Origin: Desulfobulbaceae bacterium
Lineage (GTDB): Bacteria; Desulfobacterota; Desulfobulbia; Desulfobulbales; SURF-16
NCBI GenBank assembly: GCA_024637145.1
Contig: JAGXFQ010000034.1
Coordinates: forward strand, 1-64,000
Reading direction: 5' to 3'
DNA length: 64,000 bases
The translations under genes and the position numbers were made by a program. Positions 13,442 through 19,237 of the stretch are shown here, piece after piece (the first letter of the stretch is position 1; each line of letters starts with the position of its first letter). The notes under the pieces are model-generated. The model made no database searches. It worked only from the letters and a program-made list of their open reading frames with translations, and was not told the DNA's origin.

Positions 13442-16420
13442 TTATCTGCTTTTGTGATCACTTTGGCCCTCGTCACCATCCACCGCGCAGCGGAAGCCGA
13501 TGGTGTTGGACCAGGTGGCGGCCGGTTCGATGAGGCGGTGGGCGCAGGAGATCTGGGCGCTGGCCCACGACCCTCCTTTGAGGATGGCCAGTTGCCGGCC
13601 GCGGGGGCTCTTGTGGTTGCTTGCTGTCCACTCAAAGGTATTCCCCAGCATATCCAGGAGGCCAAAGGGGCTCAGGGATTGCCTGCCGAAATAATTGACC
13701 GGGGTGGTGCTACCTCTCTGGTGGGCCGCCAGGTTTGCCAAGGGCAGGAAGGTATTGCCCCAGGGAAAAAGGAGGCCGGCCCGGCCCCGGGCGGCTGCCT
13801 CCCATTCATCCTCGCTGGGCAGACGTTTTCCGGCCCAGGCGGCAAAGGCCAGGGCGTCCAGGCGGCTGACCTGGACCACGGGATGCTGGCCCCTGTTATC
13901 CAGGGAGCTGCCCGGACCATCAGGATGGCGCCAGTTGGCGCCTTTTAAGGGGCGGCTTATCACCCCCTGGTTGATGGTCAGGGTGTGCCGGCCTGTTTTC
14001 TGCTGCACCCCGCTGCACAGGCGGCCTGAGGTGACAAGCCCGTACCCCTGTTGCTCGGCCTCGGTCTGGTAGCCGGTTTCACGCACAAAGAAGTCAAAAA
14101 GATCGTTGGTGATGGGCAGTTGGCCGATATAGAATTGCGGCAGAACGACCCGGTCGGTCGGCCGGTCGGTCTGCCGTTTTTTGGGGCCGCCCACCGGATA
14201 GCTGCCGGCGGGGATCTTGATGAATTTCGGCATGAACCGGGCCAGGATCTGGCGTACATAGGCATCATTTTGTTCCTGGAGAATGTTGGGGTTGTTGTCC
14301 AGGGCCTCCTCTGCTTCAATATATTGCGAGAGGTCCATGGATTGGGTCAGGGCCGGCTTCGGGCCCTCTGGCCCGGGCGCTGCCATCTCCTCCCGGCCCC
14401 CCTTGTCATCTCTTTGTCCGCTCAGATCGGCCGGCTCCCTGATCTCGAAATCATCATCATCATCCATTACCTCGAAGGAATCCCAGTCGGCAGGGCTTGA
14501 GTCTCCTTCTGGGTCACCACCACCCCCGGCCTCTTCCTCCTCTAGGCCCAGCCCGCCAGCTGAGCCGGCTTCCGGCACCAGCGCCGCCGGTTCCAGGGAG
14601 GCAGGCTCCTCGAAATCCTCTTCCAGCTCCACCTCCTCAAGGTCATAATCGCCGGCCTCGCCAACCGCGTCCTGGGCCGAGATCTCTTCCTCTGCCTGCT
14701 GCTGTGGAGTAGTCGCGGCCAGTTCCTCCTCCAGCTCCGCAACGTCGAAATCATCGTTCTCCATTACCTCGAAGGAGTCCCAGTCGGCAGGGCTTGAGTC
14801 TCCTGCTGGGTCACTGCTCCCTCCAGCCTCTACCTCCTTATGGTCACCCTCCGCGGCCTCGCCAACACCGCCCTGGACAGAGGCCGGGCCATCACCTGCC
14901 GGGGCAGGGATCTCTTCCTCCATTCGGGGTTCCAGCTCCGTTGCCGGGGGCAGGAGGTGGTCTGCCCCCTCCATGTCTTCCACCCCTGTTGCCTCTGACG
15001 CTGCCCCTGGTTCTTTCTCCTCCGGCGGGCTGGGCACTTCGTCCAGCTCCACAACGTCGAAATCATCGTCCATCACCTCAAAGGAATCCCAGTCGGCAGC
15101 GCTTGAGTCCCCTCTGGGGTTACTGCCTCCCCCAGCCGCCACCTCCTCAAGGTCACCGTCCTCGGCCGCGCCAACACCGCCCTGGGCAGCGGCCTGGCCC
15201 TCACCTGCCGGGGCAGGGATCTCTTCCTCCTTTCGGGTTTCCAGCTCCGTTGCCGGGGGCAGGAGGTGGTCTGCCCCCTCCATGTCTTCCACCCCTGTTG
15301 TCTCTGACGCTGCCCCTGGTTCTTCCTCCGCCAGCGGGCTGGGTACTTCGTCCAGCTCCACAAGGTCGAAATCATCGTCAGCCAGCACCTCAAAGGAATC
15401 CCAGTCGGCAGCGCTTGAGTCCCCTCCTGGTCCACTGCCCTCCCCAGCCGCCACCTTCTCAATGGCACCCTCATCGGCCTCGTCAACAGCGCTTTGGGCT
15501 GAGGCGGCCGGGCCATCACCTGCCGGGGCAGGGATCTCTTCCTCTGCCTGCTGCTGTGGGGCAGCTGCGGTCAGATCCTCCTCCAGCTCCTCTTCCAATT
15601 CCACAACGTCGAAATCATCGTCCATCACCTCAAAGGAATCCCAGTCGGCAGCGCTTGCGTCCCCTCCTGGTCCACTGGCCCCCTCAGCCGCCGCCTCCTC
15701 ACGGTCACCGTCCTCGGCCTCGCCAACAGCGCCCTGGGCAGAGGCCGGGTCATCACCAGCCGAGGCAGGGATCTCTGCTTCATCCCCGGAGCCTTCTTCT
15801 TCAATGAACTCAATCACGGTGTCCGCATCGAGCTCTAACTCCTCAACCGGCTGCGGCTCATCCTCCTGGGGGGAAGGGGAGGCGCTCTTCTCGTCCTCCT
15901 TTTCGGTGAGACCGGCCAGTCTGGTGAGAATCTGGCGGGTGGCGTCAAGCTGGCCCAGGATTTTCAGGGCCTCGTTTGGGTCGGGAGGGGCTGCGGTGCC
16001 GGTGAGCATCTCGTTTAAGGTGGAGAGGGCGCTTAAGAGGGAGCTGCTGTCGCCGCCGGCCTGGACGAGTTTGTCCAGCAGCAGGTTCTTTTTTTCGTCG
16101 GCAATGATAAAAACATTGTCGCGACCGATGATGATACCGTCTGGATTGGCGTTGCTTTCGATCCCCTCTTTCAGGCTCTTGTTGATGCTTGATTTCAGGC
16201 TGCTGAGGTTCTTGCGCTTGGCCTTGATTTCAGAAGCGCCCTGCGGGTTCCACAGCTCATGGATGAGATCCAGGGGGGGGATGGCCGTAAGGGTGTCAAG
16301 GCTCTCCTCGTCGACAAAGCGCCGGTTAATGGCCCGGAGAAACCGGGCCTTGAGGGTGGTCTCGTTGAGGTGGAGATTGTCGATGGCTTGGGCAATGCCG
16401 GCCAGGCTGATAAGGGCCAT
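13442..16420 (-). CDS. Acidic repeat protein with a C-terminal FGE/sulfatase-modifying-like domain
   Basis: The 992-residue protein has three parts. Residues 1-170 are a helical domain I do not recognise (ALISLAGIAQAIDNLHLNETT). Residues about 200-650 are very acidic, with five copies of a DWDSFEVMDDDFD unit separated by Pro/Ala/Glu-rich spacers. Residues about 730-985 are a formylglycine-generating-enzyme fold (FIKIPAGSYPVGG, HPVVQVSRLDALAFAAWAGKRLPSEDEWEAAARG, GFRCAVD). In the active-site region KGGSWASAQISCAHRL, only one of the two FGE cysteines is present. Classical sulfatase activation is therefore unlikely, and the domain may bind ligand instead. No signal peptide is seen. It is divergent from the topoisomerase-like gene across 177 bases. 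Confidence 0.85.
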   Translation of the reverse strand: MALISLAGIAQAIDNLHLNETTLKARFLRAINRRFVDEESLDTLTAIPPLDLIHELWNPQGASEIKAKRKNLSSLKSSINKSLKEGIESNANPDGIIIGRDNVFIIADEKKNLLLDKLVQAGGDSSSLLSALSTLNEMLTGTAAPPDPNEALKILGQLDATRQILTRLAGLTEKEDEKSASPSPQEDEPQPVEELELDADTVIEFIEEEGSGDEAEIPASAGDDPASAQGAVGEAEDGDREEAAAEGASGPGGDASAADWDSFEVMDDDFDVVELEEELEEDLTAAAPQQQAEEEIPAPAGDGPAASAQSAVDEADEGAIEKVAAGEGSGPGGDSSAADWDSFEVLADDDFDLVELDEVPSPLAEEEPGAASETTGVEDMEGADHLLPPATELETRKEEEIPAPAGEGQAAAQGGVGAAEDGDLEEVAAGGGSNPRGDSSAADWDSFEVMDDDFDVVELDEVPSPPEEKEPGAASEATGVEDMEGADHLLPPATELEPRMEEEIPAPAGDGPASVQGGVGEAAEGDHKEVEAGGSSDPAGDSSPADWDSFEVMENDDFDVAELEEELAATTPQQQAEEEISAQDAVGEAGDYDLEEVELEEDFEEPASLEPAALVPEAGSAGGLGLEEEEAGGGGDPEGDSSPADWDSFEVMDDDDDFEIREPADLSGQRDDKGGREEMAAPGPEGPKPALTQSMDLSQYIEAEEALDNNPNILQEQNDAYVRQILARFMPKFIKIPAGSYPVGGPKKRQTDRPTDRVVLPQFYIGQLPITNDLFDFFVRETGYQTEAEQQGYGLVTSGRLCSGVQQKTGRHTLTINQGVISRPLKGANWRHPDGPGSSLDNRGQHPVVQVSRLDALAFAAWAGKRLPSEDEWEAAARGRAGLLFPWGNTFLPLANLAAHQRGSTTPVNYFGRQSLSPFGLLDMLGNTFEWTASNHKSPRGRQLAILKGGSWASAQISCAHRLIEPAATWSNTIGFRCAVDGDEGQSDHKSR

Positions 16421-16597
16421 GTCTGTTGGTTGGAGATGATTAAGGGTAAGGGGTGCAGGGCTTCTCTAGGGAATATCGGCGAAAGGTACCAAGGGAATAA
16501 GAAAATAACATATTTTCTTGGACATTTGTTTGATTTAGGCGAGAGCTGCCGTTAGAGTGGGCAGGAAGTACCATAACTTAAGGCCGGGAAGGGATGC

Positions 16598-19237
16598 ATG
16601 GGGCAAAGATATATTCTTGTGGAAAGCGCAGAAAAAAGAGAAGCGCTGGCGGCTGTCTGGCCCACCGGCAAGGGCGAGGTGCTGCTGGTGCCGGCCCTGG
16701 CTGCGGTGGTGGAGACCAAAAATATCGAATACCTGGCCCGGGGGGAGGCGGGTTTTCTCTTTCGGCCCGCCTCCGCCAGCCAGGCGGCCCTGCAGAAAGT
16801 GCTGCAGGATAACGGCGCCGATATCTACCTGGCCTTTGACCGCAGCGACCAGGGGGAGTACAGCAGCTGGCTCTGGACCGGCCTGGTGGCGCAGCTCTCC
16901 AAGGGCTCCCTCTACTGCCGGCGTCTTCATCTGGCCGCCCTTACTGAGGAGGGGATAGAGAGGGCCATGGCCCTGGTGGAGCCCGTTGATGCCGGCCGGG
17001 CCGCCGCCATTTATTTTGCCCACCGCTTTGAGGGCCTGCTGGCCACCCATCTGCAGCGCCTGCTCGGCACCCATACCGGGCCCGGGGGCCTGCCCCTGAC
17101 CATGCCGGTGCTGGCCATCCTGGCCCTGCTGTGGGAGCGGCAGCAGGAGGTCAAGGCCTTTGCCGGGGCGCCCACCTGGCAGGTCAGACTGTCCCTGCAG
17201 GGCCCGGACGGAGAGTTCGGGGTGGACCTCAAAGAGGTGTTTGGGATCAACTGCGACGGCATTATGACAGGCAGAGAGCAGGCCGGAGAGGTTGCCCGTG
17301 ACTTAGCGGGCCAATCTTTTGGCGTGGTTTACCGGCAGGAAAAGGATCTGGAGATCCCCGCCCCTCCCCCCTACACCCTCTATGAACTTATTTTTGACGC
17401 CCATTGCCAACCCCGGATTTCCGTGGCCGAGGCCATGGCCGCGGCCACGAGCCTGGCCACCGGCGTCCTTGTTGCCGGCAAGCGGCAGGCCCTGATTTCT
17501 TCTCTCTATCCGGTGGTCCTCACCAATGAGCAGCCCTTGGTGGAGGGGCTCCAGCAGGAGGTTGCCCAGCGGTTTGGCGGGGAGGCCTTGCAGGGCCGCC
17601 CCCTTGCCGCCCATGGCATCCTGCCCCTGGATCCGCAGCGCCCTCCGGAAGAGCTGGTGGATCTTTCCCCGGCCTGCCGGCAGGTCTATGATCTTGTCTG
17701 GCGCCGCGCCCTGGCCAGCCAGATGCCGGCGGCCAGGGGAAAAGAAGTGACCCTTGGTCTGGTGAATGATACGTATCGGCTGCAGCGAGACTTTCAGGTT
17801 GTTACGGAGCCCGGTTTTCGCCGGATCTATGACCAGGGCTTTGGCGACCTGGTGGGCCCCCAGGTGGCTACGGCGTTGCAGGAGGGTGATGAGGCCCGGG
17901 TTGCCCAGGTGGTTCCTGAACAGCGCTCGGCTGGAGCGCCGGAATGGTATACCCTGCCCGCCCTGGCCGCTGATCTTACTGAACTGGGTATTACCGATGC
18001 GGAAGAAGTGGTGCAGCTGGTGGGTCGGCTGGTGGCAGCCGATTATATCAAGGAGCAGGGCAACGGCGCCCTGCAAGACGGCGCCAATCTCGTTAAGGTG
18101 GTCCAGACCCTGAATCGGGCCTTTCCGGCCATGGCGGGCCTCAATTTTGTGGTCTATTACGGCCAGACCCTTGCCGAAGTGGCCTCTGGCCGCAAGCGTT
18201 TAGCCATGGCCCTTACGCAGTTTGACCAAAATCTGTTCATGCAGGGCAGGCCCCTGGTAAAGATCAAGATGCCCGACGCCCTTCTCCAGCGGGCCTCAAC
18301 ATCAAAAAGCATCATCAAGGGTGGGGGGCTGCCCCCCCGCCCGCAAAAGAAGGCGGCGGCCGGCAAGGAGCCGCACTTTACGGATTTTGCTGAACCAGAA
18401 GCGGCAGGGCCTGGCCAGGAGGCCCTTTCTGATGACAAGGCTTTCCCGCCGGCCCCTTCCCTGACAGAGACAAAACCAGAGGCCATAGCGGCCGGCGCCG
18501 GCCCGGCCGAGGAGCTGCAGCCGGTGGCCGCGGCTGTTGAGGAGCAGACCGGCACCGGTTCCCTCCTGGCCGGGGAGGCCGTCATCCCGGCCGGAGAGGA
18601 AGAAGGGCCGGCGGGCCCGGCGCCGGCCGGGGAAGAGGCGGCTGTTTTTCCGGAAACGGCCCGGCCTGAACTGCCGGAGGAGGAGAGCGTCCCAAAGGAG
18701 CCTGCTGCCGCCCCCGAGCCCAAAAAGCCGTTCCGGGAAGTGGCCCAGGTGGCCACCAGGCCCTGTCCCCAGTGCGGCCGGGCCATGGTTGCCAAGCATG
18801 ACCGCTTTGGCACCTACTGGGCCTGTACCGGGGCGCCGGCCTGCCGCCATACCGAAGGAGAGGCAGGGGAGGAGGATGAGGCGGAAACTCTGGTGTGCCC
18901 CTTGTGTTCTCAGGGCCGGCTGCTGGTCAAGAAGACGCCCACAGGCAAGGATATGTATCTCTGCTCCGATAAGGAGTGCGGATTCATGGCCTGGTCCCGG
19001 CCCCACCCCATCCCTTGCCCCCTCTGTGCTTCCCCCTATCTGGTGGAGAAAAAAGGAGCCCAGGGGCAGGTTGTTCTGCGCTGCCCCAAGGCCGGATGCA
19101 CTTATTGCCGGGAAGTTGCTGGCAGCGATGAAGGGCCTGAGGCGCCGGAGACCAGGAAAAAGGTGGTTGTCCGCCGCCTCAAGGGCAGCGGCAGCGGCGG
19201 CGCTCGGCGCAAGGTGATGGTGCGCCGCAAAAAATGA
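16598..19237 (+). CDS. Degenerate topoisomerase I-like protein with C4 zinc ribbons
   Basis: The 879-residue protein keeps the architecture of bacterial TopA: a Toprim-like start (YILVESAEK), the IA core, and three zinc-ribbon units near the C-terminus (first CPQC near residue 723, then CPLC...CSDKECG, then CPLC...CPKAGC). The active site is damaged. Where TopA has GLITYMRTDS this protein has ALISSLYPVV, so the nucleophilic Tyr and its Arg are replaced. The Toprim TDxDxEGE becomes AFDRSDQGE. A 150-residue Pro/Ala/Glu-rich linker (about 570-715) precedes the ribbons. It probably binds nucleic acid without cleaving it. A true topA would be expected elsewhere. Confidence 0.82.
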   Translation: MGQRYILVESAEKREALAAVWPTGKGEVLLVPALAAVVETKNIEYLARGEAGFLFRPASASQAALQKVLQDNGADIYLAFDRSDQGEYSSWLWTGLVAQLSKGSLYCRRLHLAALTEEGIERAMALVEPVDAGRAAAIYFAHRFEGLLATHLQRLLGTHTGPGGLPLTMPVLAILALLWERQQEVKAFAGAPTWQVRLSLQGPDGEFGVDLKEVFGINCDGIMTGREQAGEVARDLAGQSFGVVYRQEKDLEIPAPPPYTLYELIFDAHCQPRISVAEAMAAATSLATGVLVAGKRQALISSLYPVVLTNEQPLVEGLQQEVAQRFGGEALQGRPLAAHGILPLDPQRPPEELVDLSPACRQVYDLVWRRALASQMPAARGKEVTLGLVNDTYRLQRDFQVVTEPGFRRIYDQGFGDLVGPQVATALQEGDEARVAQVVPEQRSAGAPEWYTLPALAADLTELGITDAEEVVQLVGRLVAADYIKEQGNGALQDGANLVKVVQTLNRAFPAMAGLNFVVYYGQTLAEVASGRKRLAMALTQFDQNLFMQGRPLVKIKMPDALLQRASTSKSIIKGGGLPPRPQKKAAAGKEPHFTDFAEPEAAGPGQEALSDDKAFPPAPSLTETKPEAIAAGAGPAEELQPVAAAVEEQTGTGSLLAGEAVIPAGEEEGPAGPAPAGEEAAVFPETARPELPEEESVPKEPAAAPEPKKPFREVAQVATRPCPQCGRAMVAKHDRFGTYWACTGAPACRHTEGEAGEEDEAETLVCPLCSQGRLLVKKTPTGKDMYLCSDKECGFMAWSRPHPIPCPLCASPYLVEKKGAQGQVVLRCPKAGCTYCREVAGSDEGPEAPETRKKVVVRRLKGSGSGGARRKVMVRRKK

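Follow-up and report, generated by a model that had tools for sequence, protein, structure and literature searches.

A TopA-like putative pseudoenzyme without the active-site tyrosine and its undescribed partner in Desulfobulbales

We identified a family of topoisomerase I-like proteins which has lost the catalytic tyrosine, is maintained by selection, is paired with a dedicated partner and occurs in reduced forms outside the order Desulfobulbales; these four features were demonstrated by sequence comparison. The protein studied here (P0001) is encoded, together with its partner (P0002), in a stretch of 64,000 nucleotides of a Desulfobulbaceae bacterium (contig JAGXFQ010000034.1; the whole stretch analysed is referred to below as the window), and it has been filed as a pseudoenzyme with an undescribed partner. 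It is probably a non-cutting pseudo-topoisomerase scaffold that binds nucleic acids and acts with P0002. Type IA topoisomerases are regarded as near-universal and are defined by their tyrosine chemistry. The literature covered by our search (most subscription journals lay outside it) yielded no paper describing a type IA family that naturally lacks the tyrosine.

The P0001 gene starts with ATG and its frame is open over 879 codons (16598-19237, plus strand), which confirms, by the ORF read, the intact frame claimed in the initial annotation. The P0002 gene lies upstream in the divergent orientation. The features of both genes are listed below by their position in the window, with the strand and the basis of each assignment.

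13442..16420, minus strand: partner P0002, 992 aa, with an N-terminal domain, an acidic linker and an FGE-like domain (PF03781, conserved neighbour)
13484..14230, minus strand: FGE/SUMF1-like domain of P0002, residues 731-979 (PF03781, 1.2e-49)
15989..16420, minus strand: N-terminal domain of P0002, winged-helix-like, without a Pfam family (alignments, model pLDDT 83.5)
16421..16597, no strand: divergent intergenic region of 177 bp between the P0001 and partner genes (coordinates)
16598..19237, plus strand: TopA-like protein P0001, putatively catalytically dead, 879 aa (open frame, Pfam, AlphaFold2 model)
16598..16981, plus strand: Toprim-like part, residues 1-128 (matches Toprim domains, e.g. 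6z2b_A, Z 10.1)
16982..17167, plus strand: domain IV match, first half, residues 129-190 (retained in reduced forms)
17168..17935, plus strand: domains II/III region with the lost active site, residues 191-446 (missing in reduced forms)
17501..17503, plus strand: Ser302 codon, at the column of the TopA catalytic tyrosine, which is Y319 in E. coli TopA (alignment with the genome's own TopA)
17936..18283, plus strand: domain IV match, second half, residues 447-562 (retained in reduced forms; dN/dS 0.15)
18284..18745, plus strand: fast-evolving, low-confidence linker, residues 563-716 (pLDDT below 50 over 568-705; dN/dS 0.54)
18746..19123, plus strand: three C4 zinc ribbons (conserved Cys)
19124..19234, plus strand: basic C-terminal tail of the KKVVVRR...RKVMVRRKK type (net charge of the last 25 residues)

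The TopA architecture with three zinc ribbons, recognized in the initial annotation, was borne out by Pfam, by the fold match and by the C4 ribbons themselves. P0001 matches Topoisom_bac (PF01131, 1.8e-20) and Zn_ribbon_Top1 (PF01396, 9e-10), and its score against the NCBIfam equivalog model topA_bact (110 bits) falls below the cut-off of 456. The AlphaFold2 model, which was built from 37 family sequences, has a mean pLDDT of 77.6: residues 1-550 are nearly all confident (most 10-residue blocks reach at least 84) and the zinc ribbons are folded, with low confidence in the linker (568-717). Over residues 1-558 the model aligns with topoisomerase I of E. coli (1cy0; Z 28.4, rmsd 4.6, 507 aligned residues) and of S. 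mutans (6ozw; Z 28.7, rmsd 4.5, 520 aligned residues). On the basis of this modelling against TopA, which had been recommended earlier, we can state with confidence that P0001 is predicted to carry the type IA topoisomerase fold.

Several parts of the protein are strongly conserved. The family motif GTxxGP, located within residues 129-190, occupies the place of TopA SAGRVQ, and G157, G161 and P162 are invariant in the 39 aligned rows. The zinc ribbons comprise the C722-C749 region, C767-C794 and C807-C834. The second and third are near-invariant (C767, C770, C789, C794, C807, C810, C829 and C834 are invariant in the 39 rows); the first is absent from some relatives, and at least three CxxC motifs are present in 31/39 orthologues. 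The tail is basic in every case (net charge of the last 25 residues +7 to +15 in 39/39 orthologues and +9 to +16 in 8/8 reduced forms).

In a MAFFT alignment with the genome's own TopA (from which row L012, an antisense frame, was disregarded), ALISSLYPVV at residues 298-307 aligns with GLITYMRTDS, exactly the replacement pointed out originally. The proposed check for orthologues with the same loss gave a uniform answer: in the 39 orthologues, the tyrosine column, assigned through sequence alignment and not by residue-level superposition, contains Ala (16), Ser (15), Thr (6), Asn (1) or Pro (1), and Tyr in 0/39. Because this holds for all 39 of them, the loss of the tyrosine is not a matter of chance. 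The Arg and Asp of YMRTDS and the histidine of HEAIRP are missing as well (LYPVV and xxILPL stand in their place), and these residues around the tyrosine are gone in every orthologue read. As for a functional tyrosine at another position, the outcome that according to the initial annotation would speak against its reading, the alignment of the 39 orthologues revealed none. Y304 was rejected (Tyr in 4/39 rows, and in 5/39 at position 303), as were the columns with at least 80% Tyr (77, 259, 364, 451, 483, 520 and 787), which lie elsewhere; the positions of Y364 and Y483 are also Tyr in the active E. coli TopA.

The Toprim acidic set had been described as altered, which proved to be correct in part: P0001 has Ser in place of the second Asp of DxD, but E9, D81 and E87 are kept, and the four positions are mostly D/E in the family (27/27, 33/38, 35/38 and 35/38 non-gap rows). 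Toprim acids of RNase M5 and OLD-type nucleases hold Mg2+, and these enzymes cut or trim nucleic acid. P0001 could likewise be a tyrosine-independent metal enzyme, as the acidic positions of the family and the match of its Toprim part to RNase M5 (6z2b_A) would allow. We nevertheless consider this unlikely, given the Ser at the second Asp in the window gene and its genus, the P, T or A found at the first in several rows, and the complete lack of the Toprim part (residues 1-128) in the reduced forms outside the order, which begin at approximately profile column 128 and have the same partner. The retention of Toprim acids in full-length members would be odd for a pure scaffold, and is the strongest result against one; since these members mostly keep the acids, metal-dependent chemistry may be possible in some of them.

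The initial annotation had interpreted the gene as a maintained pseudo-enzyme and not a decayed one, an interpretation that is well supported by the intact frames of its relatives, by purifying selection, by the formation of one clade and by the separate topA gene. A clear orthologue (E of 6e-40 or lower; the remaining matches, at about 1e-20 or weaker, are at the TopA level) is present in 45 of the 97 genomes searched (its own and relatives), and these 45 belong to 11 of the 15 families of Desulfobulbales. The scan of named genomes yielded 45 pseudo-topoisomerase loci, every one from MAGs, labelled Desulfobulbaceae, Desulfurivibrionaceae, Desulfurivibrio, Desulfocapsa, Desulfobacterales or more broadly (Desulfurivibrionaceae and Desulfocapsa fall within Desulfobulbales). 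The orthologue alignment leaves out seven partial loci of the 45 (L059, L067, L069, L071, L072, L074 and L077). A tree was computed from 38 dead proteins (37 of the 39 aligned, L060 and L076 being excluded for unknown residues, plus the first frame of G322), 15 TopA and one TopB. The dead proteins form one clade and all TopA another, each supported at 100/100; the tree program flags long branches, that of G322 among them. ITYMRTDS, or a slightly different version that still contains YMRTDS, is found in each of the 15 TopA proteins, which were taken from this order and phylum.

The dN/dS ratio of the pseudo-topoisomerase is 0.15-0.33 (11 close pairs; the most distant, the window versus L034, is near saturation), and when the regions were analysed separately (10 pairs), the folded parts had values of 0.11-0.18 and the linker one of 0.54. 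Such values demonstrate, at the level of codon comparison, that purifying selection acts on the fold, the zinc ribbons and the basic tail. The explanation of P0001 as a decaying duplicate or an assembly artefact could draw on G322, in which a full-length pseudo-topoisomerase from outside the class (L089:1743-4670, minus strand) is split among three overlapping frames by assembly errors or real decay. With 39 aligned orthologues in intact frames, a single order-wide clade and the above dN/dS values, this explanation is hardly conceivable, and a decayed duplicate was rejected. A viral origin was rejected as well, as no relative was found in viral contigs (a scan limited to two peptide patterns). 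Neither P0001 nor P0002 was matched by PADLOC (a single weak match, 3e-5, concerned the ParA described below), and a defence system was rejected on this basis.

The genome itself contains three type IA matches: the P0001 gene, a topB-like gene (contig 18) and a normal topA gene (contig 9). The latter, which the initial annotation had advised looking for, encodes a TopA with an intact ITYMRTDS. The coexistence of these genes, together with a fold and ribbons as in TopA, might suggest that P0001 is a regulator of the real TopA or of RNA polymerase, i.e. a dead copy competing for single-stranded DNA or protein contacts. This role seems rather doubtful, if less so than that of a metal enzyme: it leaves unexplained both the dedicated partner and the fact that in other classes the TopA-like body has largely disappeared, and P0001 has low identity to TopA and lies on a long separate branch. 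A non-cutting scaffold acting with P0002 is the reading we prefer.

The partner, P0002, which the initial annotation had overlooked, appears to be built around a second altered enzyme domain. The motif GGSWASAQISC of its FGE domain has Ser at the position of the first catalytic Cys, and this Cys is missing in all partners with a readable motif. Weak NCBIfam matches of the domain are to EgtB, SenA, GldK and PvdO. The linker carries a net charge of about -154, and the linkers of 16 partner proteins range from -24 to -204 (approximate boundaries; one contains unknown residues). Repeats such as ADWDSFEVMDDDFDVVEL were observed in the acidic linker of P0002 (approximately 14300-15900, minus strand). 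Structurally, the N-terminal domain comes closest to winged helices of the OmpR type (Z up to 7.5); Foldseek with the model of this domain gave a best E of 0.62 and a PDB profile search a best E of 0.73. Its resemblance to a winged helix is offered as a suggestion only, from the predicted model.

Clustering of neighbouring genes placed the partner gene beside the pseudo-topoisomerase gene in 36 of the 46 sources (45 loci and the window). One of the ten others (L068) has a partner according to a later search (G028, same contig coordinates), and in the remaining nine the pseudo-topoisomerase lies at or near a contig edge. Of 242 class genomes, 49 carry the two genes, two the pseudo-topoisomerase only (G025, at a contig edge, and G083, a partial match), two the partner domain only (G523, 60% complete, and G524, match 6e-4) and 189 neither; shared ancestry makes these counts non-independent, and neighbouring genes may disappear together. 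The weak partner-domain matches in G371 (7e-4) and G524 were taken as chance, G524 still being counted as “partner only”. Among 297 genomes of the phylum, a strong partner-domain match was found in 14, and a pseudo-topoisomerase in 14/14 of these.

The two genes might also be mere neighbours within a conserved chromosome block, without a joint function. Other genes nearby are indeed conserved in the order: a 574-aa reductase gene in 34/46 sources, and a HhH and PLD-nuclease gene (PF12836, PF13091; 21392-22246, minus strand), with a hydrophobic N-terminal stretch and located downstream of the pseudo-topoisomerase, in 38/46. The partner, however, accompanies the pseudo-topoisomerase gene in other classes too, where at least four further arrangements occur, and the other conserved neighbours were not seen there (no systematic search was made), so that mere proximity is improbable, about as much so as metal-dependent catalysis. 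Besides the divergent orientation, the pair is found on the same strand (family f31), convergent (G221), divergent with intervening genes including ParA (f47 and f89) and on unlinked contigs (G322). The HhH-PLD gene, syntenic within the order, was considered as a third partner and rejected, since none was seen beside the reduced forms (again without a systematic search).

The reduced pseudo-topoisomerases, of about 460-520 aa, occur in 10 of the 14 phylum genomes with a strong partner match (G112, G149, G184, G212, G239, G221, G276, G297, G339 and G378; the gene of G276 is divided between two contigs, the second of which holds its end). In these proteins, profile columns of about 128-190 are followed immediately by about 447-870. 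They lack the Toprim part and the tyrosine region, and retain both domain IV stretches (placed by the domain limits of E. coli TopA) together with two zinc ribbons and the basic tail. Among solved topoisomerase I chains, the matches of their profile are confined to the second domain IV stretch. Because these distant relatives keep only the domain IV match, two ribbons and a basic tail, binding without cutting, as proposed in the initial annotation, gains indirect support, and P0001 most likely binds DNA or RNA in this manner. A further reduced form, in G131, has no partner match and lies near the end of its contig; beside it is the terminal part of an acidic repeat protein (L123:7947-8309, minus strand), truncated where the contig stops.

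In three genomes of f47 and one of f89, the reduced form is preceded by two genes, one encoding a ParA-type ATPase (PF13614) and the other a small acidic protein that has no family assignment. This arrangement was found only in these two families and four genomes, and no ParA ATPase was found beside the window gene. Both components were also observed without the pair in G319 (L125:5670-7045), and the small protein alone in G226 (L124:6607-7107). Because they occur there without a pseudo-topoisomerase, the two look like a separate module which has joined it in some lineages. The ParA-like protein beside the reduced form of G276, the f89 genome (L112:1275-2003, minus strand), has an altered P-loop (NSKSGKT versus KGGVGKT), and is possibly a third disabled enzyme, judging from this motif.

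Taken together, these data suggest a conserved family of pseudo-topoisomerases with a single origin in an ancient type IA topoisomerase. P0001 would grip single-stranded DNA or RNA (or RNA polymerase) without breaking the strand, using the parts that hold a single strand in TopA. With its partner it might form a non-catalytic nucleoprotein complex, perhaps through its own basic tail and the acidic linker of P0002, and in lineages with an adjacent ParA the ATPase may position the complex on the nucleoid. A more specific proposal, that two disabled enzymes mark or hold a chromosome site or nascent transcripts (with positioning by the ParA-type ATPase in some lineages), is put forward tentatively, as one possibility.

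In many families of one order, a normal TopA is accompanied by a copy devoid of the tyrosine, which has a partner dedicated to it; a conserved gene pair without known function has now been named. If our interpretation is true, the strand-gripping half of a type IA enzyme became a stand-alone binding device, and these proteins are natural separation-of-function forms for the roles of domain IV and the zinc ribbons without cleavage.

P0001 resembles TopA in its fold over residues 1-558, the position of Toprim, the domain order and the C4 zinc ribbons. It differs from TopA in lacking the active-site tyrosine, RTDS, HEAIRP and SAGRVQ, and its family has invariant motifs of its own (GTxxGP, QTxxEVxSGRK and ribbons 2-3), a dedicated partner and reduced forms without the catalytic domains. 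The C-terminal domain of P0002 is related to FGE/SUMF1 proteins (PF03781: FGE, EgtB, PvdO and GldK), but without the first catalytic Cys, and it shares its polypeptide with an acidic linker and an N-terminal domain resembling a winged helix. The ParA-like ATPase and small acidic protein that precede the reduced form in some lineages recall ParA/MinD positioning, from which they differ in that no ParB or other known adaptor was identified and no ParA was found beside the window gene. Like pseudoenzymes in general, P0001 has kept its fold under selection after loss of the nucleophile; unlike them, it belongs to a family to which a partner of this kind and the reduction of domains appear to be specific.
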